This document shows, piece after piece, positions 650 through 16,449 of a stretch of 24,915 bases of DNA. Each line of letters starts with the position of its first letter. Position 1 is the stretch's first letter. The notes beneath the pieces are model-generated. The model did not search any database. It was not told the origin of the DNA and saw nothing but the letters and a program-made list of their open reading frames with translations. The position numbers and the translations under genes were made by a program. The stretch lies in IMG/VR virus record IMGVR_UViG_3300020205_000307, positions 1-24,915 of that record; one strand, 5' to 3'. This DNA comes from a virus.

Positions 650-1237
650 CTAAACTTGTTCTAATATGTTTATTATCTTTTGCATCTTAATTTCCTCATT
701 AGTTAATTTAGGAGTGTAATTAAATATGCCCTCAATAGAGAATCCATTAATTAACCCTTCCTTAACTTTATTCCATACTTCGTCATTCTCTACTAGCATA
801 GATACAAACCAACTTCCGTTTGGAGCATCCTCAAAACCTTTCATTGGCATAATACCTCTTGCTTTGTCGCTAATAAAACTTTCAAACATAGTTACCCCTG
901 TTTCTACTTGATTAGGGTCGTGCATTAGGTTTACATTATTTTGATAACCTTTCTTAAAATATTTCTGTACAATCTTTGTAATAGTATCTTTAGAGAAAGC
1001 CACGTAATAGTCCCCAAAATTAGCATCACTCCTAAAAATAGGTGTATCAGCCAACATAGCGCACCCACTAATAATTCGCTTATCTTCGCTAACAATTTGA
1101 AACTTTTGTTCATTCTTAAATGCATTCCAATTCTTTTGAATTGCAGGTCTATCGACTAAAGAAACGAATTGCACCTCTGCATCATCGTTTAAGTCATCCG
1201 ATATTTCCAACATATATAAAGGTAATTCCATACTCAT
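650..1237 (-). CDS. XkdF-like phage serine protease (prohead protease candidate)
   Basis: This 195-residue protein resembles the XkdF / Peptidase_S78_2 family, putative phage proteases that act on scaffold during head maturation. Recognisable parts are the N-terminal VQFVSLVDRPAIQKNW block (about 24-39), the ISGCAMLADTPIFR block (about 57-70) and NVNLMHD (about 101-107), which supplies a candidate catalytic His. FISDKARG and NGFSIEGIF follow. The last gives a Ser in the position expected for the nucleophile. The scaffold-like gene directly downstream supports the call. The residue assignments are inference from the family pattern. The gene follows the tape measure gene, an unusual place for a head gene. 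Confidence 0.75.
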   Translation of the reverse strand: MSMELPLYMLEISDDLNDDAEVQFVSLVDRPAIQKNWNAFKNEQKFQIVSEDKRIISGCAMLADTPIFRSDANFGDYYVAFSKDTITKIVQKYFKKGYQNNVNLMHDPNQVETGVTMFESFISDKARGIMPMKGFEDAPNGSWFVSMLVENDEVWNKVKEGLINGFSIEGIFNYTPKLTNEEIKMQKIINILEQV

Positions 1238-1257
1238 AAATAGTGTTTTATTAAATA

Positions 1258-3054
1258 TTAACTAAATCTTGCTCTTTGTCTAATTGCAGCTATCCTTTGT
1301 TGATTGCTAGTTACATCGCTTTCAATTACGTATGCTCTAACCGCTTGATTGCCAATATCGTTTATAGATTGTTGACTTATGTTTGTTGTTTGCGCTCTTG
1401 GTAATTGTGGTATCATTGGCGCTTGTGTTGAAATAGATGGCATCCCACCACTTGCTGAACCACCACCTGATGCTGCTGAATTAATTTGTTGAATACCTTG
1501 TGCTGATGCAGCAATAACAGATGCAATAGATAATGCACCTCCTATTCTAGCAGGTATAAAAGCAGGGTTAGGTGCGCCAGGTGGTAAGATTGCAGGCACA
1601 CTCATCATTTGTGTAACAATTTTAGCAATAGCTGCACCCTTTTCGATTAATAATCCTGCAATAGCTACGGCTTTACTTTTACCTGCTATTTGTGATAATA
1701 GGTTACCTGCTTGTTCTGCAAACCCAAGATATTGTAATGTTAATTGTTTTTTAGCTTCTTCTTCAGCTTTTTTAGTTGCAGTAATTTCTTTGTCAATATC
1801 CTGTTCTTGCTTTGCATATTTAGAAATAATATCTATTCTTTCCTTTTCGGTTAATTCTAGATTTGATAACTCAATAGCTTTTTGTTCAGCAATATAGGCT
1901 TCTTTATTTGCAAGCCTTTGTATGTCTTCCTCAAAGTCAAAGTCTAATAAATCGTTCTTATAATCTAAATCTGTAACTAAATTCTGTATATTTTGAAAAT
2001 CTAATTCTCTTTTTTTAGTAGCCTTCTCTTCATCAAGTTGCATTAAGCGTTGCTGAAGTTGAGTGTCAAAATCTTCAATTTCTTTTCTTCTTGCAATACC
2101 CGCTTCTTTATCTGCTATTTCATCTGCTTCCTTTTTTTTCCTTGCAGCCTCATTATCTTCAGCTATTTTCTTTTTTCTAGCTGCCTCTTGATTATCTAAA
2201 ACTTTTATTTCAGTATTTAAATCTGCTATTGCTTGCAACTCTTCTGCAGTTGCTCCCTTGATTAAACTTAATTGTTTTTGAATTCTATCCCTCTTAGCAT
2301 CGTATATTTCTTTTTCTTTGCCTCCTTGTGATTCTAATTCTTTAATAACTCTATCTGCTGACTTTATATATGCATTAGTAGCTTCAGTTAATGCATCCAT
2401 ATCTCTTGCAGCCTGACTTGTTAAGCCTATAAAATCGGTAAACCCTTGTACAATTCCTTTTACTTTGCTTGCAAATTCTACAAGGGATGGGAACATATTA
2501 ACAATAGCTTCTTTTACTTTATCAAAGTTAGCTATAAGCAAACCTAAACCAACTGCTAATGCACCTACCCCTGTTGCAATAATTGCGCCTCTTAGTGTAC
2601 TAAATGCGCTTACAACTTGTGTTCTAATTACTGCACCTAATTGCTTAAAAGAATCGATACTTTCTCCTACTGCTTGTAATCCTTGCGAAAGTGCCATAGC
2701 AGATTGTACCTTTAATAAAGTCTTTTGTACGTCTTCCGATTCTTTACCGAATAAAGCCATCGCTCCTTGTACTGCACCAAATCCACCTGCTACTCCTGAT
2801 AAAGATGCAGTTAAGGCTTTAAACTTAGCATCAGGATTAAATGCGTCAACTAAATCTTTAGCATCGCCTATTCTATCCCTTAGTTCTGCAGCTTTTTTTG
2901 CTGCGTTTACTGCCTCTACTGAAGTAGCACCAAACTTGTCCGATAACGCAATTACTTCGGCTTGTGCTTCCCTCATTTGCTTTTTAAGTGAGCCAATAGA
3001 ACTATCTGCACCTGAAGTGTTGACGTTAATATTTAAATTTAAATTCTCTGCCAT
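1258..3054 (-). CDS. Tail tape measure protein
   Basis: This 598-residue protein has the usual build of a siphovirus tape measure. The N-terminus is helical and Ala/Lys/Glu-rich (about 15-80). A hydrophobic Gly/Ala region includes a clear membrane-like stretch near 155-175 (IIATGVGALAVGLGLLIANF). A long charged coiled coil follows (about 235-435, with repeated AARKKK segments). Then comes a hydrophobic segment with Pro/Gly (about 440-530) and a Gly/Ser-rich tail. In this family length sets tail length; 598 residues implies a tail of roughly 90 nm if the usual 1.5 angstrom per residue holds. The start overlaps the upstream stop as TAATG. Confidence 0.85.
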   Translation of the reverse strand: MAENLNLNINVNTSGADSSIGSLKKQMREAQAEVIALSDKFGATSVEAVNAAKKAAELRDRIGDAKDLVDAFNPDAKFKALTASLSGVAGGFGAVQGAMALFGKESEDVQKTLLKVQSAMALSQGLQAVGESIDSFKQLGAVIRTQVVSAFSTLRGAIIATGVGALAVGLGLLIANFDKVKEAIVNMFPSLVEFASKVKGIVQGFTDFIGLTSQAARDMDALTEATNAYIKSADRVIKELESQGGKEKEIYDAKRDRIQKQLSLIKGATAEELQAIADLNTEIKVLDNQEAARKKKIAEDNEAARKKKEADEIADKEAGIARRKEIEDFDTQLQQRLMQLDEEKATKKRELDFQNIQNLVTDLDYKNDLLDFDFEEDIQRLANKEAYIAEQKAIELSNLELTEKERIDIISKYAKQEQDIDKEITATKKAEEEAKKQLTLQYLGFAEQAGNLLSQIAGKSKAVAIAGLLIEKGAAIAKIVTQMMSVPAILPPGAPNPAFIPARIGGALSIASVIAASAQGIQQINSAASGGGSASGGMPSISTQAPMIPQLPRAQTTNISQQSINDIGNQAVRAYVIESDVTSNQQRIAAIRQRARFS

Positions 3055-5075
3055 TAGTATGTTGTTTCAATTACTTTTAATAAACTTATTTTGGTCGTGT
3101 TGTATTCCATAGGGTTATAATTCTCAACCTTATTTAATCTAAATAGAACCCCGTCAATCCATATATACTTGCTAAAGTCTAGGTCGTTAATATCTATTGT
3201 ATTTAACAACGCAGAGCAAGTTAATAGTTTACTATCCTTGCTAGTTATTTCGGCTATATATTGACTATGATATGCATTAAATAGATTTGTAGTTGGATAT
3301 GTACCTGCACTATATTGTATTTCAAATGGCGCACCAAAGTTAATATCATTCGTAGGTGTATAAGGGTCGTTAATATGACCCCCATATCCATAAGTGGTTA
3401 TAGTATCAACTACTGATACTCCATTTAAAATATTATAACTAGTTCTCCCTGTTATCTTTTTAGCTTGCATAATTCTAATAACACTATCCATTGAATTTTC
3501 TTTTGTGTTATTATCTGACACTTTATAAATAGCAGGGTATATTTTATCTGTTCCTACCTTTTGATACAATACACTTGCTGCAAATATTACATCAAGCGTA
3601 TCTGTTTGTTTGCTAAAATCAAATTCTGTATCATAAATTCTGTCTCCATATCCTTCATTATATTTTTTAGTATAGTTCTCATTATAAAAATCATTGTCCT
3701 GTTTATACTTATAATTAAAATATCTTGCGTTTAATTCACTCATAGGCTTAATGCTTAAAGGCTTAGACCTGTCTATCTTATTAGACCAATCTAAAGCGTT
3801 TGCATAAGTATCAGGATAGAAATTAATGTAAGGCTTAATAATTATCTTTTTGTCATCCCAAGTATCTTCATAAACATATAAGTTAAACATTTTAACTATG
3901 CTTAAAAAGAAGTCTCTTTGAAATACCCCTCTTGGAATTGTATCATTAATAACTAATGCATCATTATAATTTACAGGAACAGGAACAAATGCATCTGAAA
4001 AAAAAGATACTTGTGCTTCAGTTAATAAAATAGGTGGGTCATCTCTATTAGGTGCAGTATTTGTAAACCTAAATCTAATTGCATCTCCTGTATTTACTAA
4101 TAATTCAAATTCTTCACTTATACCAAATGCATCAACAAAATTAGAACTATAAACGATAGTGCTATTTTTATAGATGTAAAATGTCCCACTTGTAGAATCT
4201 CCACCAAAAGTATATTGCATCTTTAAGTTTATAGAAACAGAACCTGAATATGTAAATGTACTTCCACCTGCACTTACAACTAATCCTGAACCCGTAACAG
4301 TATCAAATGCTACTGCACTTGTGCCTGTAATTTCTAAATTAGTTGTTCTCGTAGCTACATTTAATGTGCCTGTTGTTTTAGTTAAAGCCTTTTGATTATG
4401 TGGAATAATAAGCCTGTTAAATAGTTCTTGGTCTCCTGCTAACAAGTCTAAGGTATAAGTATAATCTGTACCTGCAAATATTTTTTGTAAATATTCTTTT
4501 ACATATAATGCAGGTCTATACGCAGTAAATTGAAAATTTATCTTGTCTGTACTTACATTACCATAATCTATTAATGGATAATAGTATCCTGTCCCTGCAA
4601 TAGTATCCCAACTAGCCTTAATATTAGCTATATTATAATCGTGATTATATGCACTAAAATCTAAATCTTGTAATCTATTATTGCCTAATGCAGTTATAAA
4701 ACCTCCTAATTCTCCGAACACAGAACATTGATACTCAATAGTTTTGTTATCAATTACAATTTCTAATATTCTTAATGTCCCTTTAAATATCTGTACCTTG
4801 TCAATAAAGATTCTACATTGAGCGGACTTTGATGCATTAAAGTTATAGTTTACATTAGGCAATGTATTGTCTGTAAAGTTTGCGTTCCCTAAGTCAAATA
4901 CAAAGCCAAATATCTTATTGTTTATAGCAGTACCTGAAATATTAATGGTCTTAGAATAGGATGTATTTCTACTTCCGAAATCATTAACGTCATCGATAGC
5001 ATAATTAAACTCTGTACTTATATCTTGCAATAAGTCTAATTTATAATCCTCAATATATATCTCTGTACTTATCAT
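3054..5075 (-). CDS. Tail structural protein (distal tail/baseplate-like), function unassigned
   Basis: A 673-residue protein rich in Asn, Thr, Tyr and Ile, the composition of a beta-rich virion protein. The N-terminus (YKLDLLQDISTEFNYAIDDV then SRNTSYSKTINISGT) looks like the opening of long tail proteins common in Bacteroidota siphophages. The middle (about 220-330) is a Thr/Ser/Gly-rich beta region. The C-terminus ends in a compact YIWIDGVLFRLNKVENYNP segment. It joins its neighbours by TAATG overlaps at both ends, upstream of the tape measure. Position suggests a distal tail or baseplate component. No enzymatic motif was seen. Confidence 0.6.
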   Translation of the reverse strand: MISTEIYIEDYKLDLLQDISTEFNYAIDDVNDFGSRNTSYSKTINISGTAINNKIFGFVFDLGNANFTDNTLPNVNYNFNASKSAQCRIFIDKVQIFKGTLRILEIVIDNKTIEYQCSVFGELGGFITALGNNRLQDLDFSAYNHDYNIANIKASWDTIAGTGYYYPLIDYGNVSTDKINFQFTAYRPALYVKEYLQKIFAGTDYTYTLDLLAGDQELFNRLIIPHNQKALTKTTGTLNVATRTTNLEITGTSAVAFDTVTGSGLVVSAGGSTFTYSGSVSINLKMQYTFGGDSTSGTFYIYKNSTIVYSSNFVDAFGISEEFELLVNTGDAIRFRFTNTAPNRDDPPILLTEAQVSFFSDAFVPVPVNYNDALVINDTIPRGVFQRDFFLSIVKMFNLYVYEDTWDDKKIIIKPYINFYPDTYANALDWSNKIDRSKPLSIKPMSELNARYFNYKYKQDNDFYNENYTKKYNEGYGDRIYDTEFDFSKQTDTLDVIFAASVLYQKVGTDKIYPAIYKVSDNNTKENSMDSVIRIMQAKKITGRTSYNILNGVSVVDTITTYGYGGHINDPYTPTNDINFGAPFEIQYSAGTYPTTNLFNAYHSQYIAEITSKDSKLLTCSALLNTIDINDLDFSKYIWIDGVLFRLNKVENYNPMEYNTTKISLLKVIETTY

Positions 5076-6301
5076 TATCTAAATTGACTTGTTATATATT
5101 TACCAACCTCAATATCTATTTCAAAGTTAAATAGCTTGTCCGAACTTTCTAACTTATACTCGTAATTTGTGCTGCTTATTGTAACAGGGAAGTATGCACC
5201 TTGTACTTCCATATAAGTAATTGTACTTGCAAATAACTGCGCTAACCATTCATAATCTTGTTGACTTACCCAATCGGAAATAAGATGAAACTTATCCTTA
5301 TGCTGAATAGCGTAGTTTAGAGTCGTCTCATTGTACTTATTATAAGAATCGATATTAGTCATTGTATTGCCTGATAACTGCCAATCATTGCGTCTATATG
5401 ATGCTCTCTGCACCTCTGTTGACCTTTTGTTAACTAGGGCAAACTTCATTGTATCCCAACCGCCTAGTCTATTTAAGAAATGTAAGTTATACTGCTTATA
5501 TTTAGGATAGCACTTTTGTTTAAATTGTAGCTTCCTAGATATTGCAACTCCTCTCTTTAAGTAAACATTATAGCCATAAGTATTCTCTGTTATTAAAGTT
5601 CTGCCTGCAAAAGTATTAATATGCCCTGCTTGACAATTAAATAGATTCATTTCGCCTGTGAATGTAATATTACCACTAGCAGTATCTATAACTGCGTTTG
5701 ACTCGTTAACTACTTCTATCCAAGCCGAATAACTACCTGCCGTAATTTTAAAATATGTGGCATAGAAGTTATCGCCATACTCTATTGTAATATCCTCTGC
5801 ATCTCTTTCGGTTAGCCAATCATCTGTAAAGTTCTCGATTAATAGGTTATCATAATAATCAGATAGAACTAATGGAGTATTGCTATTAACAAATAGAATG
5901 TCCGCAAACAATGGCGGGTAATAGTTATATGCACTTAATGCACCTGAAACTAAATCTAAGCTAGTAACTAAATTGCCACCACTTACATATTCTTCTCCTA
6001 TGCGAATAGTAGAATTAACTTTTATCTTATCATTAGATGCAACTAAGATAGAACTACCCGATGGCTCAAAGTAATTAGTTACATATGCCCTAACCATAGG
6101 GGATGCGTTAAATACCCCATAGCTACCTTCCGCTGATGGCGAAGGATATATCTTTGTTCTGCTTACTTGTGCACCATTAACGAAAACGTCATAAACGAAC
6201 TTAAATGCAGTTTCGCCTACATTAGTTGAACTAGAAACGTACCATAAGTCATCGTGCATACTTGAATAAGGAGCAGGACTACTTTGAATTGTTATTGCCA
6301 T
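5075..6301 (-). CDS. Virion structural protein, probably tail
   Basis: A 408-residue beta-rich protein with many Tyr, Asn, Ser and Thr residues and no catalytic motif. It starts MAITIQSSPAPYSSMHDDLWY. Later segments include RKLQFKQKCYPKYKQYNLHF (about 255-274) and LNRLGGWDTMKFALVNKRS, which recall large unassigned tail proteins of Bacteroidota phages. The start lies 23 bp inside the end of the gp10-like gene. The stop overlaps the next ATG by one base, so translation is probably coupled. A tail tube, sheath-like or distal tail role are all possible; only 'virion protein' is supported. Confidence 0.55.
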   Translation of the reverse strand: MAITIQSSPAPYSSMHDDLWYVSSSTNVGETAFKFVYDVFVNGAQVSRTKIYPSPSAEGSYGVFNASPMVRAYVTNYFEPSGSSILVASNDKIKVNSTIRIGEEYVSGGNLVTSLDLVSGALSAYNYYPPLFADILFVNSNTPLVLSDYYDNLLIENFTDDWLTERDAEDITIEYGDNFYATYFKITAGSYSAWIEVVNESNAVIDTASGNITFTGEMNLFNCQAGHINTFAGRTLITENTYGYNVYLKRGVAISRKLQFKQKCYPKYKQYNLHFLNRLGGWDTMKFALVNKRSTEVQRASYRRNDWQLSGNTMTNIDSYNKYNETTLNYAIQHKDKFHLISDWVSQQDYEWLAQLFASTITYMEVQGAYFPVTISSTNYEYKLESSDKLFNFEIDIEVGKYITSQFR

Positions 6302-6947
6302 TTGTTATTTCTTTACCGATTTGTCTAATTTTAATTTGTATATCTTTACCTAATGCAGCCTCCATAACCTCGTAGAAGTTCTTTCCAAATGTAGCCTTTT
6401 CTGCATTATCAAAATAATGTGTTGACCTTATACCCTTTCTATGTATTGACCTAGCTATAACATAAGCTAAGGACTTTTTAGCATCAACTGCCTTACCTTC
6501 AACACCTAGCTTTCTATAAGGTTTTACAGATACTGCTTTTAATTTATTGTATCCTAGCCATTTTTCTACTGCCGAAATAGGTATGCTCTTTTTAGCAGGA
6601 TTAAACTTATAAGGAGTCTTTGAGTCTGCCTTTATGTTTCTTGTACCTTTTACCCCTTTGTTTATAAAATCCCAATACTTAGATGCAGGTTCGCTTTTAG
6701 GGTAACCAATTGATAATGTATAGCTTGTACCAAATTTAGTAACAAACATTTTTATATCATTAATTGCACCCGAAGCTATTGAATTGTTTGCTCGTAAGTT
6801 TCTTTGAGCCTGTAATATAAAGTCTGCGCCAAAGTCTCTAAGCAATCTTTCTGCAACAGGCAAATCATTAGGCTTCATAGGTTGTTCGCCTATGGTATTT
6901 AGGAATCCTTCTCCTAATGCTATTGCTTGTGCTTTTGTAATACTCAT
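6279..6947 (-). CDS. HK97 gp10-like / tail completion protein candidate
   Basis: A 222-residue basic protein. The pattern LQAQRNLRANNSIASGAINDI (about 45-65), followed by a beta segment (KFGTSYTLSIGYPKSEPA) and then YWDFINKGVKGT (about 91-102), resembles head-tail connector or HK97 gp10-type proteins. These carry an SGxL helix, a beta sheet and an aromatic-FxxxGxxGT turn. The rest is Lys-rich and looks extended. It lies between the tail chaperone pair and the tail structural genes, and its start follows a terminator-like hairpin by 34 bases. The assignment rests on pattern and position only. Confidence 0.45.
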   Translation of the reverse strand: MSITKAQAIALGEGFLNTIGEQPMKPNDLPVAERLLRDFGADFILQAQRNLRANNSIASGAINDIKMFVTKFGTSYTLSIGYPKSEPASKYWDFINKGVKGTRNIKADSKTPYKFNPAKKSIPISAVEKWLGYNKLKAVSVKPYRKLGVEGKAVDAKKSLAYVIARSIHRKGIRSTHYFDNAEKATFGKNFYEVMEAALGKDIQIKIRQIGKEITNGNNNSK

Positions 6948-6981
6948 ACCAATAAATAGTGTTATAACATAAAAATAACTA

Positions 6982-7005
6982 TCCCCACCTTTTTAGGGAT
7001 GGGGA
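6982..7005 (-). terminator. Terminator-like hairpin after the tail chaperone genes
   Basis: On the minus strand TCCCCATCC pairs with GGTGGGGA around a short A-rich loop. The outer six pairs (TCCCCA/TGGGGA) are perfect and two more form past a bulge. ATAGTTATTTTT follows, U-rich but not an uninterrupted run. It lies in the 84-base gap between the chaperone extension and the next virion gene. It may only lower read-through, giving more chaperone than tail protein, because the genes beyond it still need a transcript. Confidence 0.5.
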
Positions 7006-7031
7006 AGTAACCAAAAATCCAACTATGAAAA

Positions 7032-7304
7032 CTATCTTATCTTTTTAATCTGCTCGTTGTCGTAATCTGTTTTAGCTTTTAGATAGGATAGTATGTTTAA
7101 ACACTCTATTGTGCTAAGTTCATACGCTTCGCTAACTCTGCAATTTTCGTACTCGGCAATAAGTTTGGTGCTATATTGCCATCCAAAATAGTCAATAAAC
7201 TTTGAACCACCTCTGTCGCTTGTTGATGACTCATTCCCGCTTCCTGCATCTTGTTCGCCAAATAATCCTGTGAAATTTCTATCCAATTTCTGTATACTTG
7301 ATAA
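7032..7304 (-). CDS. Tail assembly chaperone, -1 frameshift extension (gpT-like part)
   Basis: This frame has no good start of its own; the first candidate is a TTG at 7286. It is open upstream to the T-run at 7311-7303. Relative to the 227-residue gene it lies in the -1 frame. A -1 slip in the T-run would join the first 162 residues of that gene to 90 residues here, about 252 in all. The C-terminal part, with W, YELSTIECLNILSYLKAK and a charged tail, has the pattern of the T domain of phage tail chaperones. That domain is made only as a frameshift product and recruits the tape measure. Confidence 0.65.
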   Translation of the reverse strand, partial: LSSIQKLDRNFTGLFGEQDAGSGNESSTSDRGGSKFIDYFGWQYSTKLIAEYENCRVSEAYELSTIECLNILSYLKAKTDYDNEQIKKIR

Positions 7305-7789
7305 AAAAAAACCAACGAGTGATATACGTCTACAAATCTTGCTTCTAACATATCATCTGCATAGTCTTTGTGATTACTTGCATCGTATGGCTTACTTACC
7401 CAAAATCCAAATCTACTGCGCTCCTGCGGAATTATCATAGTAGCTGCTAACTTATGTAGGTTGCCATATAGGTCTTCGCTAAATACTTTGCTTTCTATAT
7501 ACCTTGCGAATGGCATCTTACTTACATCATAATTAATCTTGTATCTTTTGTTTTTAGAAATAGGTATATACTTAACCGCTTTGCCATTTATAGGCTCATT
7601 AAGGAAGGATATTGTTTCTTTTAACTCTGCGTACTTGTTTAATGGGAGGCTATCTATTTGCATCTCTGTCATATTATTGACTATTGCAATTAGCTTTACA
7701 TCTGTATCTAAGTCAGTATCGTTTTTGTCTTTTGTCTTTATGACATTATAAATCTGTTGATATTGCCATACGTTTATTTTGTCCCACAT
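7106..7789 (-). CDS. Tail assembly chaperone (gpG-like, zero-frame product)
   Basis: A 227-residue protein upstream of the virion genes and tape measure. It begins MWDKINVWQYQQIYNVI and contains TEMQIDSLPLNKYAEL, ISFLNEP and KRYKINYDVSKMPFARYIESK. This series is typical of Bacteroidota phage chaperones (VWxFQxIY, then a FLN and a 'YxxxK' region). The family binds the tape measure and assists tail tube polymerisation. The T-run at codons 160-162 provides a -1 slip into the extension frame. The start overlaps a 37-residue membrane ORF by 16 bp. Function is inferred from position, frameshift architecture and remembered family pattern. Confidence 0.6.
   Translation of the reverse strand: MWDKINVWQYQQIYNVIKTKDKNDTDLDTDVKLIAIVNNMTEMQIDSLPLNKYAELKETISFLNEPINGKAVKYIPISKNKRYKINYDVSKMPFARYIESKVFSEDLYGNLHKLAATMIIPQERSRFGFWVSKPYDASNHKDYADDMLEARFVDVYHSLVFFYQVYRNWIEISQDYLANKMQEAGMSHQQATEVVQSLLTILDGNIAPNLLPSTKIAELAKRMNLAQ
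7303..7312 (-). other. Slippery sequence for -1 ribosomal frameshifting
   Basis: In the frame of the 227-residue gene the minus strand reads GTT TTT TTT TAT, so T TTT TTT forms an X XXY YYZ heptamer inside a nine-T run. The -1 frame entered here stays open to the stop at 7032. No other in-frame heptamer of this type was found between this point and the zero-frame stop. A nine-T run could also allow polymerase slippage, which would give the same two products. Confidence 0.6.
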
Positions 7790-7887
7790 AGCTGCTTGAT
7801 TTTACATAAAGATACTGCAATTATATATACAAAACAAGCTAATGGTACTGAAATAATAAAGAACTTAATAAGTTGTAGTATTTTCAT
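7774..7887 (-). CDS. Small membrane protein, 37 residues, unknown function
   Basis: ATG at 7887, stop TAA at 7776-7774. The product is MKILQLIKFFIISVPLACFV followed by YIIAVSLCKIKQLCGTK. It has one hydrophobic helix (about 5-29) and basic ends, with more positive charge at the C-terminus. The start lies 23 bp inside the end of the 57-residue gene and the stop 16 bp inside the chaperone gene, so the three are probably translated in a coupled way. It falls below usual length cut-offs and is not recognised as a named family. Confidence 0.5.
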   Translation of the reverse strand: MKILQLIKFFIISVPLACFVYIIAVSLCKIKQLCGTK

Positions 7888-8038
7888 ATGTATTTGTTAA
7901 TAGGTCTTTTTTAAGCATTTTAATTGATAGTTCCTTTTGTGCTAGTTCTTTTTCTAACTTCTCAATTTTTTGAATAAGACATTCATTTTCTAGTTTAATT
8001 AGATATTCCTGACTTATAGTATAGTTGTTTTTTGTCAT
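7865..8038 (-). CDS. Small coiled-coil protein, 57 residues, unknown function
   Basis: ATG at 8038, stop at 7867-7865. The sequence has a helical, Lys/Glu/Leu-rich core (LIQKIEKLEKELAQKELSIK, about 21-40) that should form a coiled coil, ending in NTYENTTTY. It is the first gene after the hairpin terminator at 8051-8114. Its leader (AAACAAACACT directly before ATG) is shared with the genes starting at 21252 and, nearly, 8378. It could start the tail operon transcript. No family was recognised. Confidence 0.55.
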   Translation of the reverse strand: MTKNNYTISQEYLIKLENECLIQKIEKLEKELAQKELSIKMLKKDLLTNTYENTTTY

Positions 8039-8050
8039 AGTGTTTGTTTT

Positions 8051-8114
8051 AAAAAACCACCCCGAGTACCCGTAATTACTATTTTTGTTTTAAATATTTA
8101 ATTTCCCGAGGTGG
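8051..8114 (-). terminator. Long-loop hairpin followed by T6
   Basis: On the minus strand CCACCTCGGG (8114-8105) can pair with CTCGGGGTGG (8066-8057) over ten positions, two of them G-U. The loop is 38 bases and AT-rich, and six Ts follow at once (8056-8051). These are the ingredients of an intrinsic terminator, though the loop is long. It separates the small early-looking genes (8820-8123) from the tail block. The arms are clearly more GC-rich than the surroundings. Confidence 0.5.
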
Positions 8115-8122
8115 CTATGTCA

Positions 8123-8206
8123 TTAAATGTTTTGATAGATAGCTACTATTGTAAAGGCTAGTATTAGTATTAATACTGCCTGAATGTTATACTGCTTCTG
8201 TTTCAT
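8123..8206 (-). CDS. Small membrane peptide, 27 residues, unknown function
   Basis: ATG at 8206, stop TAA at 8125-8123. The product is MKQKQYNIQAVLILILAFTI followed by VAIYQNI: a basic, polar start then one hydrophobic helix. It overlaps the end of the 63-residue gene by 20 bp and ends nine bases before the terminator hairpin, so it would be the last gene of that transcript. Small membrane peptides are common in phages, but nothing identifies a function. Confidence 0.4.
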   Translation of the reverse strand: MKQKQYNIQAVLILILAFTIVAIYQNI

Positions 8207-8378
8207 ATTGGTGTATTAATTTAGTTTGTAATTGTTCTAATATTGCCTTGTCGTTTGAGTAGATTTCTATTAGATTATCATTTTCAAAACTTTGTAATAA
8301 TCTGTCTATCTGCTTTATTCTTGCAAATATAGAGTCTAATAATAATGTTTGCTCTTGGGTTGTTAGTTGTAGTTTCAT
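8187..8378 (-). CDS. Hypothetical protein, 63 residues, helical
   Basis: Begins MKLQLTTQEQTLLLDSIFAR and ends KLIHQYETEAV. Leu, Gln, Glu and Ile dominate, so it is probably all helical; there are no Cys or metal-binding motifs. The leader AAAACCAACACT directly precedes ATG, a near copy of the leader at 8038 and 21252. It lies 10 bases after the 143-residue gene and so probably shares its transcript from the promoter near 8845. Not recognised. Confidence 0.55.
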   Translation of the reverse strand: MKLQLTTQEQTLLLDSIFARIKQIDRLLQSFENDNLIEIYSNDKAILEQLQTKLIHQYETEAV

Positions 8379-8388
8379 AGTGTTGGTT

Positions 8389-8820
8389 TTATGCTTCTTT
8401 TAATTTAAAACTATTTACAAATTCTATTGGTGTACCTCTAAAAAATTCTGTTTGACAATGGTCGTTGTGATATGCTACGAATTCTATTGTTCTGTTTGGC
8501 TTAACTATAATGTCATATAGATAATCCTCTGAACAATTACCTCTGCTTTGTAGTCCGTAAACATATACTCCGCCTGCTCCGTCTTTCATCTTAGCTATTA
8601 ATTGAGCCGTTAAACAACCTGCTCCGTTAAAAACTAATGTTTCGTCTTTTAATCCTAGTCCGTTAACTACGTATCCTTTTGAAAGCCAAAAGGCGGTTTC
8701 TAATGGATGCCCTTCAGGGTAGCCATCATACTGAACATAAATTAAACTAATTTCATTGCTTGTTATTGAGTCTTCTTGTTTGTGTTGCTCAATAATTCTG
8801 TACGTGCTTCTTGTTCCCAT
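8389..8820 (-). CDS. Conserved phage protein of the MGTRSTY...QYDGYPEGHP type, unknown function
   Basis: A 143-residue protein beginning MGTRSTYRI with YVQYDGYPEGHPLETAFWLS at about 28-47. I recall this N-terminal combination from a protein family widespread in phages and bacteria, but know of no function for it. The rest has GGVYVYGLQSRGNCSEDYLYDI and an HNDHC cluster (about 118-122) that could bind metal. It is the first gene downstream of the 8842-8849 TATATTTG promoter and the operator-like boxes, so it should be strongly regulated. It lies between terminase and the tail genes. Confidence 0.65.
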   Translation of the reverse strand: MGTRSTYRIIEQHKQEDSITSNEISLIYVQYDGYPEGHPLETAFWLSKGYVVNGLGLKDETLVFNGAGCLTAQLIAKMKDGAGGVYVYGLQSRGNCSEDYLYDIIVKPNRTIEFVAYHNDHCQTEFFRGTPIEFVNSFKLKEA

Positions 8821-8841
8821 TGTATTATTTTTTGGTTAACA

Positions 8842-8862
8842 CAAATATACGCAGACTTATCC
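8842..8862 (-). promoter_or_regulatory. Bacteroidota-type promoter with GGATAAG box
   Basis: Read on the minus strand: GGATAAG (8862-8856), six bases TCTGCG, then TATATTTG (8849-8842), which matches the Bacteroidota -7 consensus TAnnTTTG exactly. The ATG of the 143-residue gene lies 21 bases further on. No TTTG -33 element occurs at the usual spacing, so an activator or phage factor binding GGATAAG may replace it. The same GGATAAG plus TATATTTN arrangement occurs in the control region at 21867-21886. Confidence 0.55.
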
Positions 8863-8931
8863 TAGATATCCTAACAATATACTAACTATTTTTAAACAAT
8901 ATGATAAGTGGTAAATAAGAAGGATAAGCGG
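8853..8931. repeat. Operator-like boxes, copy A (three sites)
   Basis: Three related sites lie in the gap after terL: CTTATCC at 8856-8862 (plus), GATAAGTGGT at 8903-8912 and GGATAAGCGGT at 8922-8932 (both minus when written CTTATC). The stretch from about 8901 to 8933 is nearly the same as 21737-21769: ATAARTGGTAAWTAAGAAGG then ATAAGCGGT. CTTATCCT (8856-8863) and AGGATAAG (8921-8928) form a perfect 8-bp inverted repeat. The likely role is binding of one regulator at both operons. Confidence 0.65.
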
Positions 8932-10092
8932 TTATGCAAGGCTATATCTGCCTGAACCACGTCTAGAATTATAACTTGACCAAGCTAATGCTAATGCCAT
9001 AACGCAGTCATCGTGAAATCCGCTAGGTGCGGAATACTTAACTCCTGTACTTGTAAAGATATACTCAAAGATATTTAACTCATCAACAATAACTCCATCA
9101 GGATACTTGATTAACTTTTGTTGTATCGCTGCAGATAAGCCTTCCATTAGTTGTTGCTTACTAGAACTCGTAAACCTTAAACCCTCAATCATCATTCCGC
9201 TTCTTTGCAAGTCCTCTAATACAGGGTCGCCTACTCCTGTACTATCAATTAAGGTATGCGCTTTAGGCAATCGCTTAATGTTTTCCTTAGTGTTATGCCA
9301 ATCCATTTGAAACCTATCAAAATAACATACTTGCCCTAAGTCATCTAATCCAACAATAACTGTCCAATCGACAGACTTTGCTACGTCAATACCAAATGAT
9401 ACAGGTATTCTGCCACTCATAGGGGAAATACATTTTCTAATAAACTCGTTCCCAAAAGGGTTTGCACTATTCTCTGCAGGGTTTGCCATATACTCCTGCT
9501 CAAATACTATATGTGGTAATTGAAACTTAGCCGCATCAACTTCTTCGGCAGGTATTGTAGGGTTGTCGTATGTAGTAAACTTATAGCTTTCCCAATCCTT
9601 CTCCCCTCCTTTCATATAGAGGCTATAAAAGTAGTTAGTACCCTTAGGGGTTGATAAGAAGATTGCGCCTCCCTGATAGTCCGTAAGGGTAGGTCTTATA
9701 GAATTTAGCCATCCCTTCTCTAGGTCAGGAATAAAAGATGCCTCATCTATAATAACCTTATGGAATTTTAAACCTCTAAAAGAATCAAGCCTTGTTCCTG
9801 TAAAGAATCTAATCTTGCCGCCTGTTACAAATTCAATAATTAAATCGGACTTGTTAGTCTTATAGCTTCCACTAGGCAAATGCTGACATAGTTCCTCAAA
9901 GAATACCTTTGACAATAAATAGGTAGGTGTAACGTAGGCAACGGACTTGCCCTGTAACGCTTCCTTAATTGCTATTACTTGCGACACTAGAGACTTGCCC
10001 CATCGTCTGCCGCACATTAAAACAATAAACCTGCTTGTTGATTCTAGGACAGGTAATTGTGTCTTATGTGGTTGAGGAAGTATTATTTCCAT
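8932..10092 (-). CDS. terL: Terminase large subunit
   Basis: The 386-residue packaging motor has both expected domains. The ATPase part has Walker A CGRRWGKS (27-34), Walker B VIIDEAS (113-119) and a coupling motif LSTPKG (146-151). The RNase H-like nuclease part has Asp in GIDVAKS (D236), LIDSTGVGD (D283) and HDDCVMALA (D361/D362). It would cut concatemeric DNA and drive it into the prohead. It overlaps the probable small subunit by 29 bp. It is followed not by a portal gene but by a regulated intergenic region. At 386 residues it is compact for the family. Confidence 0.95.
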   Translation of the reverse strand: MEIILPQPHKTQLPVLESTSRFIVLMCGRRWGKSLVSQVIAIKEALQGKSVAYVTPTYLLSKVFFEELCQHLPSGSYKTNKSDLIIEFVTGGKIRFFTGTRLDSFRGLKFHKVIIDEASFIPDLEKGWLNSIRPTLTDYQGGAIFLSTPKGTNYFYSLYMKGGEKDWESYKFTTYDNPTIPAEEVDAAKFQLPHIVFEQEYMANPAENSANPFGNEFIRKCISPMSGRIPVSFGIDVAKSVDWTVIVGLDDLGQVCYFDRFQMDWHNTKENIKRLPKAHTLIDSTGVGDPVLEDLQRSGMMIEGLRFTSSSKQQLMEGLSAAIQQKLIKYPDGVIVDELNIFEYIFTSTGVKYSAPSGFHDDCVMALALAWSSYNSRRGSGRYSLA

Positions 10093-10441
10093 AAGGCATA
10101 AACTTAACTGTTATTTTGTTATCGCTTGTAATGTCGATTTCAGCCTGTTCCTTCGGCTTTCCATATACTCTAGTTAATAAGGTCTCAAGAGAATATAAGC
10201 TGCCCTTAATGAGGCTCTTATTCATCGCATTGGCTATTGTCTTCTCTAGTATGGTTGCATCAGGATTGTCATAGACCGATTTAAGTTCTTCGCTATTCAT
10301 TGACATCATAGCCTGTATCGTGTCGTTAATTTCGCTTAGTCTATATCCTTGCGCCTTTAATGATGTAACATACTTTCTAGGCCTTCCATTAGGATTGCCT
10401 GACTGACCTTTTACAAAAGGTATTAAATGCTCTTTGCTCAT
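10064..10441 (-). CDS. terS: Probable terminase small subunit
   Basis: A 125-residue protein directly upstream of terL, overlapping it by 29 bp. The N-terminus has PFVKGQSGNPNGRPRKY (about 8-24), a Gly/Pro/Arg DNA-contacting motif often found at the start of phage small terminase-like proteins. A helical region follows (LKAQGYRLSEINDTIQAMMS, then AMNKSLIKGSLYSLETLLTRVYGKPKE). Small terminases recognise the packaging site and load the large subunit. The assignment rests on this motif, size and position; a typical HTH is not obvious. Confidence 0.7.
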   Translation of the reverse strand: MSKEHLIPFVKGQSGNPNGRPRKYVTSLKAQGYRLSEINDTIQAMMSMNSEELKSVYDNPDATILEKTIANAMNKSLIKGSLYSLETLLTRVYGKPKEQAEIDITSDNKITVKFMPYGNNTSSTT

Positions 10442-10445
10442 TCTG

Positions 10446-11102
10446 TTATTGTTCTGTTAATGATTCGTTGTATTTGTGCCTAATCTTAATCTGCTCCTTA
10501 GACTCCCAAGCCTTTTTATATTCCATATCTTCGAATAACTTACTAAACCCTGTTATGTGTTTTAGCCTAAGTATCTCTTCCGATTCCATCCCTAGTTCGT
10601 TACATACCTCTGCGTCTGTCCAACCATTCTCTAACATTTGAAATACCATACTTGACATACCCGATACGCTATGCTTCCCTCTTGCTCTGTTGTGTCTCAC
10701 GGTGCTAGCCATCCTGTCGTTAATGTCCTTCTCAATTACTACAATAGGCAGACAACCATTGTTCCTTTCTAGTATGTCCTTGTTTGATTTGCAGGTAAAG
10801 TACCTATGGAAGCCATCAACAATAATGTACTTGTCTAATGCCTCATCATAAATTGTAACCACAGGTTGTGTGTACCCATCGTGTTTAATAGAAGTATAAA
10901 GCAAACCCATCTCAATCTTTGCTACTGAATTAGGGTTGTAATCGTTCGCCTGTACTTTGTTAATGTCAACCCATCGAACTAGGTCAATAGGCTGCGTATT
11001 TACAGGACTTAGGTCTTTATGGATAAATTCTCTTAGGTCATAGATAAATTTCATTTTATCCTCTGCATTATTAAATGCCTCTTTTAGTTGTTCGTATATC
11101 AT
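10446..11102 (-). CDS. ParB/sulfiredoxin-fold protein, IbrB-like
   Basis: A 218-residue protein with a ParB N-terminal-like nuclease domain. It has DINKVQANDYNPN (about 46-58), then GYTQPVV and YIIVDGFHRYF with the DGFHR signature (96-100), then NRARGKH (138-144). A helical C-terminal part follows (WTDAEVCNELGMESEEILRL, HTH-like). ATGA overlap couples it to the upstream PP-loop gene. This pair matches IbrA/IbrB, known together in E. coli and many phages. DndB of phosphorothioation systems has a comparable DGQHR motif, but the relation is only suggestive. The phage role is unknown. Confidence 0.75.
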   Translation of the reverse strand: MIYEQLKEAFNNAEDKMKFIYDLREFIHKDLSPVNTQPIDLVRWVDINKVQANDYNPNSVAKIEMGLLYTSIKHDGYTQPVVTIYDEALDKYIIVDGFHRYFTCKSNKDILERNNGCLPIVVIEKDINDRMASTVRHNRARGKHSVSGMSSMVFQMLENGWTDAEVCNELGMESEEILRLKHITGFSKLFEDMEYKKAWESKEQIKIRHKYNESLTEQ

Positions 11103-12253
11103 ATATATTTATTTTTAAGCATATGTCTTGATACCTTCCCCTTCTTGTATTTTCTCCAAGTGTCTACCTCTGGCCCACGTTCCCAATTACCAAGCTTTAC
11201 AAATCCAAAGTCATTGATAACTATTGACTGAACACAAATCTTATATAGCTTGTCAATGTTTTTCATTGTACCATATTTTTCGTCTAGCTTCTCGAACTTC
11301 TTTTTAAAGATAGGTATTGATGATTCGGGCAATAGCTTCTCGGTTAGGAAGTCTCTGTACTCTTTCCAATCCTTAAACATATATGGTAACTCTTTAACAA
11401 AAAAGTCGTCTTCTCCAAACCTACTTGCGGTTGATACCCCTTGCAATCTTTCTGTTAGTTTGTTATAGGTGTCCCCCTCAATTTCTTGTAGGAAGAATAA
11501 TTGCTTAATAGCGGTTTCGTGATGCAGGTTACTTACACGCATATCTTGGATAGCATAACCATACTGATACATATAATCGTAAACCTTGCAATACTGCCAA
11601 CTATGTTCGTGTATAGCTTTCCATACGTCTGTATAACTCCAATCGTATAATGGGTAAAAGGTATAATGTTCGTCTGCTTTGTTAAGGGTCTTGCCCCAAG
11701 TAATATCTTTGTATGTTACCCCATTAGTTAAAGCCATTGCTCGTGTTGGACTTTCCTCTGCTCTTACACCGGCTAGGTATGCTGACTTTTGTTTCGGGAA
11801 TTGATGCTTAAAGAAATTAGGGAAGAACTTATAGAATTCATCTAAGTGCGAAGAATTTTTACTTGTAGCAAAAGTATTCTCTTTAATAGAAATAGGGTCT
11901 TTTTCACGCATCCATTTTTGTCCTTCTCCCCAAGCCTCTAAGCAGTCTGTACTTGTTGAAGTTGAGTTTGTAATCTTAAAAGGTGCTTGTATCCAAAAAG
12001 GCTCTACGTCTTCTCTGTACATTACGTCTTTCACATAGTCGATTGTAAACTGCCACTCTGCTTCTTGGTCGACAAACATAACCTTTTGAGGCAACCTATT
12101 CCTTTCTTTAGCTATTTCTAATGTTAGGTTTAGAACACAAGTGCTATCCTTACCACCGCTAAAACCTACAACGACATTCTCAAATTCATCAAATATCCTG
12201 TTGATTCTAGCTTTAGCCTCGACTAATACGCTTGCATCTTTGTAGAATTTCAT
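11099..12253 (-). CDS. PP-loop ATP pyrophosphatase, PAPS reductase/IbrA-like
   Basis: A 384-residue member of the adenine nucleotide alpha-hydrolase fold. The PP-loop SGGKDST lies at 32-38, GVRAEES at 162-168 and FYPLYDWSYTDVWKAI at 199-214, as in PAPS reductase-like proteins. The long C-terminal part (about 220-384) fits the DUF3440 region of IbrA. True PAPS reductases end in a catalytic ECGLH motif, not seen here, so sulfate reduction is unlikely. A nucleotide-activated modification or regulatory role fits better. The gene overlaps GNAT upstream and ParB downstream by 4 bp each. Confidence 0.85.
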   Translation of the reverse strand: MKFYKDASVLVEAKARINRIFDEFENVVVGFSGGKDSTCVLNLTLEIAKERNRLPQKVMFVDQEAEWQFTIDYVKDVMYREDVEPFWIQAPFKITNSTSTSTDCLEAWGEGQKWMREKDPISIKENTFATSKNSSHLDEFYKFFPNFFKHQFPKQKSAYLAGVRAEESPTRAMALTNGVTYKDITWGKTLNKADEHYTFYPLYDWSYTDVWKAIHEHSWQYCKVYDYMYQYGYAIQDMRVSNLHHETAIKQLFFLQEIEGDTYNKLTERLQGVSTASRFGEDDFFVKELPYMFKDWKEYRDFLTEKLLPESSIPIFKKKFEKLDEKYGTMKNIDKLYKICVQSIVINDFGFVKLGNWERGPEVDTWRKYKKGKVSRHMLKNKYI

Positions 12254-13196: not shown

Positions 13197-13476
13197 AAGT
13201 TACTTCTCGTAATGCTCTATTAATTAAAATAGGTTGTTCGCCAACCTTTTCCATAGTCCAATACTTATATTCTCCGAAATAAAAGTAATTAAAATGTGTA
13301 CTAAAAAACCTTTCCTTAACTAAATTTAGTTTCATATGCGCTACAAACCTATTGTACTCTTCCCTATCTAGGCTTCTATTAAATAAGCAATACTCGTGCG
13401 GTGTGGTCTTTGCATATGTTTTAGCGAATATCCATTCGTTATTGTTTATGAATTGTTGGATTTCTGTATCTATCAT
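13189..13476 (-). CDS. Conserved phage hypothetical protein (WIFAKTYAKTTPHEY family)
   Basis: A 95-residue protein with WIFAKTYAKTTPHEYCLFNRS (about 15-35), a block of aromatic residues (FFSTHFNYFYFGEYKYWTME) and a final ILINRALREVTYG. I recall this order (FAKTxxxxPHEY, then YWTM, then INR) from proteins found in many phages and bacteria with no known role. The stop overlaps the glycosyltransferase-like start by 8 bp and the start overlaps ParB by 4 bp, so it belongs to the accessory operon. Confidence 0.6.
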   Translation of the reverse strand: MIDTEIQQFINNNEWIFAKTYAKTTPHEYCLFNRSLDREEYNRFVAHMKLNLVKERFFSTHFNYFYFGEYKYWTMEKVGEQPILINRALREVTYG

Positions 13477-14024
13477 ATTGTTACCTTAAATTCATTTCCA
13501 CAAGCAGGGCAAATTACCTCTGCGTGTTTTGATTCTTGTATAAACTTATCTGCTAGTTCTTGCGCCTTCTTTAATATATCGTTGTCAGTTACGTCCTTAT
13601 GATTTGTTTGTGGTTCTAATACAGGTTGATAATCAGGCACTTCCCATTGAATTACGTCCCACTCTTTTAATGCGCTTGTATCCCAAGAGTTTGCTAATTC
13701 GTCCCAATCAAATTCTCCTGCGTTTGTATTGTCCTTAATCATAAATTCATCTTGTTGCTCTTGAGACCAACCCGATGTGTATATTACAGGAATTTCTTTG
13801 TAACCAAGTTCTTTAGCAGCCTTATACCTCATATTGCCTCCAAGTATAACCCCTTCTTCATTAACAACAATAGGTCTTGCATTTAACATTTCAGGAAATT
13901 CTGTTAAACTTTTAACAAGTTTTTTGAACTTAGCATCTTTTATTAATCTTGGATTGCTAGGATGAGGCTTTATGTCATTAACCTTAACGACCTTGACCTC
14001 TGTAGTTGCGTTCTTTTCTGTCAT
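13473..14024 (-). CDS. ParB N-terminal-domain protein
   Basis: The preferred start is the ATG at 14024 (MTEKNATTEVKV), giving 183 residues. An upstream GTG at 14090 would add 22 residues, but that stretch is coding in another frame for the 40-residue ORF. The ParB nuclease/sulfiredoxin-like domain has VVKVNDIKPHPSNPR (about 12-26), RPIVV and GVILGGNMRYKAAKELG (58-74), with GGNMRY replacing the GERR motif. The C-terminal CPACGNEF (172-179) is a half zinc finger. Such proteins often accompany phage methylases; none is present here. Confidence 0.75.
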   Translation of the reverse strand: MTEKNATTEVKVVKVNDIKPHPSNPRLIKDAKFKKLVKSLTEFPEMLNARPIVVNEEGVILGGNMRYKAAKELGYKEIPVIYTSGWSQEQQDEFMIKDNTNAGEFDWDELANSWDTSALKEWDVIQWEVPDYQPVLEPQTNHKDVTDNDILKKAQELADKFIQESKHAEVICPACGNEFKVTI

Positions 14025-14106
14025 TTTTATTGTATGATTTTTTTGCTTTGCCATTCTTTCTTTTACCAAAGTTAACCTTTTTTGAATCACTTTTAACTTT
14101 TGCCAT
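13984..14106 (-). CDS. Small basic protein, 40 residues, overlapping ParB
   Basis: ATG at 14106, stop TAA at 13986-13984. The product starts MAKVKSDSKKVNFGKRKNGK and ends KKSYNKNDRKERNYRGQGR, very rich in Lys, Arg, Asn and Gly. I recall near-identical small proteins (FGKRKxGKAKKSxNKxxxK...YRGQGR) in Bacteroidota phages. It starts 14 bp inside the HNH gene and runs 41 bp into ParB in another frame. The charge and size suggest nucleic-acid binding; no function is known to me. Confidence 0.7.
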   Translation of the reverse strand: MAKVKSDSKKVNFGKRKNGKAKKSYNKNDRKERNYRGQGR

Positions 14107-14350: not shown

Positions 14351-14874
14351 TTTTTATCTATTTGTTTTAGTTTATTTATTGCCCATTCAATCCCTGACGT
14401 GCCACCCCAAGCATCCCACATTAAACCACCGCAACCTTCTGTATAAGGTACGTCTTTGCTTTGTTGATGTCTTTTAAATGATGCCATCCTTGCAATAGTA
14501 TCCCTAGATATATTTTCTTTTTTAGCTAATTGATTTGCCCTAGCCTTCCCGACTGCAGTTCCACAACCTCCCCAACCATTTTCGTCTGCCCATTTCAATG
14601 CACGTTTAGCATTATTAGAAGCAGATTCAGGATAGTCATTATAAGTTTCTTCAAGTTGTTGACTAATAGGAACACAATTTGGAGAACCATCAGGTTTTAA
14701 TCCAATAGGCTCGTAACCTTCCCAACAAGGGTTTGGCTCTATATCTAATGCGGCTTTAGGTAATAAACCACTTTGAATGGCAGACCAAACTTTTTCAGCC
14801 TTTTCTTGTGTGTCATAAATACAACTTCCTGTACCTATTCTGTACTTTCCGTTGCTACATTTAGTTATTGGCAT
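14347..14874 (-). CDS. Phage protein with C-terminal 'TAVGKARANQLA...GGLMWDAWGG' module
   Basis: A 175-residue protein in three parts. The N-terminus (KCSNGKYRIGTGSCIYDTQEKA) is a short Cys-containing strand-rich segment. Then comes CWEGYEPIGLKPDGSPNCVP (about 49-68). The C-terminal part (from TYNDYPESASNNAKRALKWADENG, about 77-100, to GIEWAINKLKQID) contains CGTAVGKARANQLA, ISRDTIARMASFKRH and GCGGLMWDAWGG. I recall this last module attached to head protease or portal-type proteins in other phages; here it stands alone, among glycosyltransferases. Function unknown. It overlaps the GT4-like gene by 14 bp and HNH by 4 bp. Confidence 0.6.
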   Translation of the reverse strand: MPITKCSNGKYRIGTGSCIYDTQEKAEKVWSAIQSGLLPKAALDIEPNPCWEGYEPIGLKPDGSPNCVPISQQLEETYNDYPESASNNAKRALKWADENGWGGCGTAVGKARANQLAKKENISRDTIARMASFKRHQQSKDVPYTEGCGGLMWDAWGGTSGIEWAINKLKQIDKK

Positions 14875-15865
14875 TGCTTATTAATTTATTATATATAGCA
14901 AATCTTTTGTTATTTATGGTGTGAAGGTTAAAATTAGTATTGCAATATTCAAATAGCTTTTGACCATACTCTGTCCTTGCAGCCTCGTCAAAGGTTAATA
15001 GCTTAATCCATTTATACCAATCTTGTTGGTTGTTAACATAGCAAACAGGCATATTTTTATAAGGATGCACGTTGCTAACAATAGCAGGGTTTTTCTTTGC
15101 GGCAGTCTCTAATACCTTTAAATTAGATTTCATTGCTCCAAACTTATTTTCTACTAAAGGTATAATACTTATGTCCGAATCTGCGTATGCACCCATATAT
15201 TTGCTTACTTCCGAATAGTCATATATAGTTGGATTAAGTTTTAAACCATTAGTAAATACCCCAATCATTCTATCCCAAAGATGCTTTTCCCCTAGATTAT
15301 ATCCTGCTATAATTGTCCTAACAGGGAAATTAATCTTTTTCATTGGGTTGCGCAGGATATCAATATCAGGAACGTGAGTGCCTGACCCTGCCCAAAACAA
15401 CCTGACAATATCGGATTCTAATTTATTGTCTTGAAATTGTTCTTCTCCGTATGGTAAAGCGTTTGGTAATATTTCTACATTAGGATTGTATTTATATATT
15501 TCTTCAGCCAACCTTTCGTGTGTACAAGTGCATAGGTCTGCTACTCGCATATACTCTGTAATAATATCTGTAATGTTGCTTTCTCTATATCTTTGTGCAA
15601 GTATATGTGTTGGTGGCAATATCCAATAATCGTCATTATCGACAACTAACTTAAAGTTATATTTCAACTTCATTTCAACTAATAGCTTTGCATCTGTTGA
15701 TGCTAAAAATCTGTTAAATATTACGATGTCATAGTTATTGTCAAATACTGCCTCGTTAATTGTATCTGTAATAAGGCAATAATCTTTTTGCATATTAACT
15801 AATGGCATCATAATTCTATGATAACCAACCCCACTAAACTTACTTGTTATTGCTAGTATTCTCAT
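14861..15865 (-). CDS. Glycosyltransferase, GT4/GT-B-like
   Basis: A 334-residue protein with a two-Rossmann (GT-B) arrangement. The N-terminal half begins MRILAITSKFSGVGYHRI (about 1-18) and has LVVDNDDYW (73-81) and a helix-rich segment ending in LPNALPYG (about 136-143). The C-terminal half has VRLFWAGSGTH, ISIIPLVENKFGAMKSNLKVLETAA (about 234-258), where a nucleotide-sugar site is usual, and IVSNVHPY. Such enzymes move a sugar from a nucleotide donor; the acceptor is unknown. It sits in a cluster with GT2 and LpxA-like genes and overlaps both neighbours. Confidence 0.75.
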   Translation of the reverse strand: MRILAITSKFSGVGYHRIMMPLVNMQKDYCLITDTINEAVFDNNYDIVIFNRFLASTDAKLLVEMKLKYNFKLVVDNDDYWILPPTHILAQRYRESNITDIITEYMRVADLCTCTHERLAEEIYKYNPNVEILPNALPYGEEQFQDNKLESDIVRLFWAGSGTHVPDIDILRNPMKKINFPVRTIIAGYNLGEKHLWDRMIGVFTNGLKLNPTIYDYSEVSKYMGAYADSDISIIPLVENKFGAMKSNLKVLETAAKKNPAIVSNVHPYKNMPVCYVNNQQDWYKWIKLLTFDEAARTEYGQKLFEYCNTNFNLHTINNKRFAIYNKLISNANN

Positions 15866-16449
15866 AAAGGAATGTAATATGATTTAGTTCTATTAGAATA
15901 GTCTGATACATTTTGATTATGTAAATCCCAAGTCTTTTTAACTAAATCCATCTTGTTATAACCATAGGCATCAATGCCATTTTGTTCTATATGTGTCGCT
16001 TTTGTATTCGGTATAAATTTAGTATGCAATCCTGCTGCTCTGCATCTAGTGCAATAATCTAGGTCTATTGCTCCATATGGGTCTAGTTCTTCATTAAATG
16101 CACCGACCTTATTAATTACCTCTGCCTTGATTGTAAAGTTGCCAATTAAGTCTAGTGAGTCCCCATTAAAACCATCTAAGGGGATTGAGCAAATGCCTAT
16201 TGTATTATCTTCCATATACTCGTTTCTAGTTTGCAACCAATTATTAGGCTCTAATATGTCATTCCCCATAATTGTAACATACTCAACATAGTCATAGTTA
16301 AAATGTCTTAACCCTTTGTTGATTGCATAGGCAATCCCTATTTCATTAACTATGCTTATAAAATCTATATGCTTTCCTGCATTTTTAATGTTAGCAAACA
16401 AAGTATCTGTGTTTCTATCCTGATAGTTTAAATAAATTATTGCATTCAT
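15862..16449 (-). CDS. Glycosyltransferase, GT2-like
   Basis: A 195-residue, short GT-A enzyme. It has IIYLNYQDRNTDTLFANI near the start, GIAYAINKGLRHF (about 38-50), a MGNDILEPNNW segment (about 61-71) standing in for the DXD region, and GAFNEELDPYGAIDLDYCTRCRAAG (about 117-141), the acceptor/catalytic base region of GT2 proteins. TKATHIEQNG closes it. It overlaps the LpxA-like gene upstream and GT4-like gene downstream by 4 bp. It lacks a membrane segment, so is probably soluble. Confidence 0.75.
   Translation of the reverse strand: MNAIIYLNYQDRNTDTLFANIKNAGKHIDFISIVNEIGIAYAINKGLRHFNYDYVEYVTIMGNDILEPNNWLQTRNEYMEDNTIGICSIPLDGFNGDSLDLIGNFTIKAEVINKVGAFNEELDPYGAIDLDYCTRCRAAGLHTKFIPNTKATHIEQNGIDAYGYNKMDLVKKTWDLHNQNVSDYSNRTKSYYIPL

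Follow-up and report, generated by a model that had tools for sequence, protein, structure and literature searches.

Does a gene lying close to the terminase gene of a Bacteroidota phage give one protein or two and, if two, is it RNA polymerase or the ribosome that slips? The question is raised by a run of nine T's (T9) in the virus record IMGVR_UViG_3300020205_000307, whose whole length of 24,915 bases is here called the window and whose genes lie nearly all on the minus strand (Table 1). A preliminary description of the window had proposed a -1 frameshift on this run, joining two parts of a tail chaperone of the G/G-T type. A frame transition at the T9 is very probable from the comparison of sequences, and it would in all likelihood yield the pair G and G-T, which are probably tail chaperones, irrespective of the machine involved. 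Concerning the machine, we lean slightly towards RNA polymerase adding one U over -1 slippage of the ribosome; this is a judgement and not a computed posterior. All of the evidence in the analysis is comparative.

Table 1. Positions of the features discussed, numbered along the window
Feature	Position	Strand	Remarks
T9 slippery run	7303-7311	-	Codons 160-163 (GTT TTT TTT TAT) of the 227-aa ORF
In-frame heptamer T_TTT_TTT	7304-7310	-	Phase right for a -1 shift
0-frame ORF, G-like protein	7106-7789	-	227 aa: 162 aa shared and a C-terminal tail of its own of 65 aa
-1 extension (T domain)	7032-7310	-	Glycine/serine-rich linker, then helical GW...LN.LxYLKA domain; stop 7032-7034
Dual-coding overlap	7106-7302	-	Conservation of the 0-frame tail as well as of the -1 frame, from diversity by codon position
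Terminator-like hairpin and T tail	6981-7005	-	27 bases past the G-T stop; consensus match only
Terminase large subunit	8932-10092	-	Close upstream of the gene, same direction
Probable tape-measure protein, 598 aa	1258-3054	-	Weak similarity to the tape-measure protein beside G in locus L384

The run, its four codons and the heptamer are present as first described, except that position 7312, counted there as part of the run, is the G of GTT. The -1 frame is indeed open to its stop: its translation is FFLSSIQKLDRNF...KKIR and, with the two Phe codons ahead of the slip included, FFLSSIQKLDRNFTGLFGEQDAGSGNESSTSDRGGSKFIDYFGWQYSTKLIAEYENCRVSEAYELSTIECLNILSYLKAKTDYDNEQIKKIR. It was also correctly seen that the T frame has no good start codon of its own, TTG 7286 being the only one available in the window. 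What had been missed is that the 0-frame runs on for about 65 codons past the slip, so that this stretch is dual-coding. The terminator-like hairpin downstream is represented by two overlapping matches, against 0.4 expected.

The window has a GC content of 33%, and the runs of at least nine bases expected in it number about 0.8 for A and 2.4 for T; one is observed. A nine-base run by itself is unremarkable in such AT-rich DNA; its phase and the fact that the -1 frame is open go beyond chance, and its conservation does so most of all. When the 0-frame tail of the window is recoded synonymously, the -1 frame stays open in 0.35% of cases, and the same recoding in ten members gives 0.05-0.95%. Based on 77 representatives with equal T length, the diversity at 0-frame codon positions 1, 2 and 3 is 0.31, 0.24 and 0.56 upstream of the slip, which is the pattern of ordinary coding; it is flat in the overlap (0.22, 0.24 and 0.25), as when both frames are constrained, and after the 0-frame stop it takes the phase of -1 coding (0.20, 0.53 and 0.27). 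The number of 0-frame codons left past the slip is 57-88 in nearly all relatives and about 25 in the phage P12024S. The presence of TTT TTT at every site is not a matter of codon bias, because TTC is frequent among the upstream Phe codons of the relatives' genes (471, compared with 839 TTT). No other heptamer within the shift window is widely conserved across the relatives.

A first scan of IMG/VR gave 311 related stretches, of which 80 loci were kept, and further scans brought the set to 315 loci: nearly all are from IMG/VR, and the others are the phages P12024S and P12024L, one MAG locus and the window itself. Some of these loci are one contig fetched twice (there are 221 distinct product pairs) and loci overlap between searches; counts are of loci unless they are called distinct. 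An in-frame T_TTT_TTT is found at the homologous place in 311 of the 315 loci, that is in all those that are readable, as T9 in 298, T10 in 12 and T8 in one (L111). The four loci with no readable site are three truncated ones (L117, L168 and L169) and L116, which was considered as a true exception and ruled out by the several indels in its contig. The G/G-T pair with a -1 transition that the preliminary description put forward agrees with this site in all 311 readable IMG/VR relatives and with the conservation of both frames, and no relative encodes the two as separate proteins with the slip site missing. The gene is seen twice (L119 and L120), about 33 kb apart, on the 49,966-base contig IMGVR_UViG_3300002835_000289, which perhaps exceeds a single genome length or is chimeric.

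Among 50,697 phage records the sole relatives are the Nonlabens phages P12024S and P12024L (about 28% identity over 61% of the query), and tblastn against named phages also finds these two only, faintly. Their homologous site is CTT TTT TTT TAT CAT, with the T frame in -1. P12024S_38 and P12024S_39 (L256, 5914-6608; JQ823122.1, 23136-23830) are annotated as two hypothetical genes, the second as a separate ORF from an internal ATG; judged by their frames they are the two halves of one putative frameshifted gene. Their families, phrog_32199 and phrog_38404, are direct relatives of G and T which are listed separately, as of unknown function, and the frameshift joining them is not annotated there. 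The attribution to Bacteroidota holds: P12024S infects a flavobacterium, one locus (L170) is located in a Chitinophagaceae MAG and prophages are found in many Bacteroidota genomes. T9 is no general rule of Bacteroidota phages, since a heptamer scan of 6H, P2559S, B40-8 and P12002L gave no comparable T9 site.

When Bacteroidota genomes were searched with a profile, about 45 loci that are prophages or resemble them were recovered, and in one Bacteroidota family the gene is present in 28 of 101 genomes. The prophage proteins are 16-23% identical to one another, with site, phase and T frame unchanged. The T domain lies in the -1 frame in all of these loci except L382 (the T matches are weak in L378-L381). 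T9 is found in 42 of the 45; the remaining three have T7 (L374) or T6A, i.e. T_TTT_TTA (L377 and L380), and all three keep the T domain in -1. Wherever a member has its T domain in -1, an in-frame T_TTT_TT(T/A) stands at one column. The run is read in two registers: NTT TTT TTT TAN (2+3+3+1), as in the window, and in most prophages NNT TTT TTT TTG or TTA (1+3+3+2), where the first codon is GCT, AGT, GGT, ACT, AAT, TAT or TCT; both registers give exactly nine T's. The 57 representatives (<75% identity, that of the window included) comprise 52 T9, two T10, one T7 and two T6A, so that the run has at least nine T's in 54 and is shorter in three. On one quick FastTree tree of these short, diverged proteins, the 5' base which sets the register changes four times and the run length four times. 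The two flanking bases are associated (31/22/3/1, Fisher 1.4e-11, a strength that is overstated because descent is ignored), and TTR makes up only 33% of the Leu codons in those genes. The T9 could be upheld by protein constraint, through a swap between a hydrophobic residue and Leu at the flanks together with a hydrophobic residue in the -1 frame.

Some of the prophage loci have features of their own. In L382, a very distant relative, one frame at about 1500-2250 on the reverse strand seemingly holds both G and a T-like stretch (GWDYVLREV...), with no T run; neither match is strong (E 6e-4 for G, about 0 bits for T) and, if real, this would be a natural G-T fusion. In L383 the gene is flanked by what resemble host genes, and in L384 the G/G-T gene is followed by one for an outer-membrane receptor. 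These two loci and L340-L369, which belong to the family with 28 positive genomes out of 101, may be domesticated or remnant tail modules.

Concerning the function, the gene quite probably encodes a tail chaperone, by its architecture and neighbourhood rather than by family membership. This part of the preliminary description stands as probable on those grounds; the family models lend it sub-threshold matches, and named tail chaperones appear only as weak matches in BFVD, where the significant ones belong to an uncharacterised family that includes P12024S. The match of the window protein to Phage_TAC_7 (PF10109) has an E-value of 0.044, below the cut-off, and 6 of 44 members match the same model, also sub-threshold (best 0.0059). 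The NCBIfam scan gave no match and no curated chaperone model passed. The AlphaFold model of G is mostly helical and fairly confident (pLDDT 82.7), and that of T has a disordered linker and helices with block means of 88-96 pLDDT over residues 41-90. A PDB fold search of G and T gave no usable match, an absence which says nothing on their role. The terminase large subunit gene, close upstream in the window, immediately precedes the gene in P12024S and L385, and in L384 a tape-measure protein (phrog_3336, E 6.7e-4) is encoded directly upstream of G. In G/GT systems the chaperone gene lies between the genes for the tube and the tape measure; in the window, G and the probable tape-measure gene are not adjacent, the latter being fourth downstream.

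The arrangement resembles that of lambda gpG/gpGT, where a G protein is likewise accompanied by G-T, a product extended in the -1 frame by a linker and T domain, in the late structural region. In lambda, however, the slip site is GGGAAAG and five codons of G are left after it, compared with T9 and about 65 codons here; the gene order is V-G-T-H, and there is no sequence match to G. P2 gpE/E+E' and the P2-like phages share with this family the all-T slip in equal phase, and Phage_TAC_7, weakly matched by several members, is described as the E/41/14 family. P2 differs in having six codons left past the slip and a run shorter than nine, and profile comparison with P2 E, like that with a Bacteroidota TAC_7 protein and with lambda G, was not significant. 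A slip near the end of G is usual for G/GT chaperones, though not strictly required, and is not seen in this family. The genes with transcriptional slippage (Thermus dnaX, Shigella mxiE and spa genes, IS elements) share a homopolymer of about nine and an alternative C-terminus, according to the sections of PMC5009743 and PMC1088944 drawn on here; the same sections have no phage tail chaperone among the genes that they describe, and transcriptional slippage in this gene is a candidate mechanism.

Elements in the RNA that could assist either machine were sought around the run. At the T9 sites there is no sign of a simple 3' stem (the z-scores of minimum-energy folds are near zero and no pairs covary) and no consistent SD-like stimulator was found; -1 ribosomal frameshifting commonly has such a 3' structure or upstream SD but does not require it. 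A hairpin of the T run with GGATAGAA can be drawn in some members and was rejected, covariation giving it no support. No conserved 5' hairpin of the nascent RNA that could aid polymerase slippage was found, and the Rfam and tRNA scans gave no matches.

Two explanations dispense with slippage. The T domain might be a separate protein with its own start (the TTG in the window, the internal ATG of P12024S_39), as the database annotation of P12024S_39 has it, and TTG or ATG is present in the T frame of many relatives. This is very improbable: the stretch between the slip and the T domain lacks any ATG, GTG or TTG in 40 of 217 distinct relatives, the -1 frame is conserved right from the slip site, the conserved TTG is forced by a Trp of the other frame and the T9 would be left with no role. 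The probability is negligible that the two frames stem from an indel made in sequencing or assembly, or that the gene is phase-variable or decaying; a T9 is error-prone and the contig of L116 is ridden with indels, but T9 and phase agree across independent contigs, isolates and genomes, and the frames are fused by an indel at the run in no readable member.

The other two explanations place the event on the run itself. RNA polymerase may insert one U on the T9 in some of the mRNAs, ordinary translation of which would give G-T; we consider the chances of this to be evenly balanced. Alternatively, and with somewhat lower probability, the process is purely ribosomal, with -1 slippage of tandem tRNA-Phe on U_UUU_UUU as in the P2-like phages and the extra T's due to amino-acid constraints; both machines may also slip at the T9. 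To our knowledge, the tail chaperone shifts tested so far are all ribosomal, and we know of no example of transcriptional slippage in a phage tail gene. Seven T's suffice for a ribosomal slip. Transcriptional slippage rivals ribosomal slippage here because nine A's or T's is the slippage threshold reported for the polymerase in many bacteria (PMC1088944) and because no RNA stimulator was found; Tn with n >8 has likewise been linked to transcriptional realignment (PMC3711429). The run is exactly T9 in those 52 representatives in spite of the two registers, which also counts against a purely ribosomal event, and other runs of at least nine are depleted in the relatives' DNA (T 0.28 and A 0.10 of expected), although the depletion of T runs sets in at T7-T8 and not sharply at T9. 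Against the polymerase, side-chain constraints in two frames could hold the run at T8 to T9 with no selection on length, every T9 contains an in-frame heptamer anyway, and the runs of L374, L377 and L380 are too short for it (L111 has T8). The heptamer, in frame in all members with a -1 T domain including these short-run cases, speaks for the ribosome, as do the T6G, T7G and T7C sites used at tail genes of P2-like phages (PMC3931495) and the description of chaperone frameshifting as classically ribosomal (PMC5009743). The downstream folds of L374, L377 and L380 are the strongest (-18 to -24 kcal/mol per 60 nt vs -2 to -15 in T9 members), a contrast with n = 3 that is confounded by GC, the three being GC-rich, and the sequences favour the ribosome as the putative slipping machine in those lineages. 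At the T9 sites, by contrast, heptamers with no stimulator would be expected to be weak, since the E. coli values for them are no more than about 10-fold a 0.055% background (PMC4066793), against the 6-7% measured for two HK97-like chaperone genes (PMC3711429). Of the frameshift first proposed, the -1 transition stands; a ribosomal slip is not established, given T9 in two registers, no stimulatory RNA found and a length that fits transcriptional slippage.

Under the proposed mechanism, most products of the gene would be G (227 aa), and a minority would switch to the -1 frame on the T9 to give G-T (252 aa), in which the 162 N-terminal residues of G would be followed by a flexible linker and the helical T domain. 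If the pair works like lambda gpG/gpGT, the tape-measure protein would be coated by many copies of G for each G-T, and recruitment of the tail-tube protein would fall to T; in the G/GT system neither protein is part of the virion. Rather tentatively, this large family of Bacteroidota phages may set its G:G-T ratio by polymerase slippage on exactly nine T's, some lineages having swapped, at one homologous site, to ribosomal slippage on T6A or T7 with downstream structure. A run length kept at nine in very distant relatives suggests that RNA polymerase may be the slipping enzyme, instead of or beside the ribosome. Even where protein identity is down to 16-25%, the run at the homologous site still counts nine T's exactly although its register has changed, and a few relatives have switched naturally to a classical ribosomal heptamer; this gives a comparative handle on polymerase versus ribosome slipping that is testable in the isolated phages P12024S and P12024L. 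Also, two PHROG families of unknown function are named as halves of one G/G-T gene. The dual coding extends over about 200 bp and would be missed by tools tuned to short overlaps; in PRFect the distance from the slip to the in-frame stop averages 26 nt (PMC10885494).

Other parts of the window were also noted. The late-gene order is unusual (650-10441), with tail genes close after the terminase and the head protease (650-1237, Peptidase_S78_2) placed beyond the probable tape-measure gene. A PAPS-reductase/DUF3440 protein lies beside two ParB-N domain proteins (11099-12253, 10446-11102 and 13473-14090), one of the two ParB-N matches being below the cut-off, and this group adjoins the terminase genes. 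Probable glycosyltransferase-like genes and a hexapeptide transferase gene are found at 14861-16949, a block with a possible role in glycan or surface modification. A 22-base tandem repeat of 2.9 copies is located at 19273-19337, within the ORF 19627-18983.
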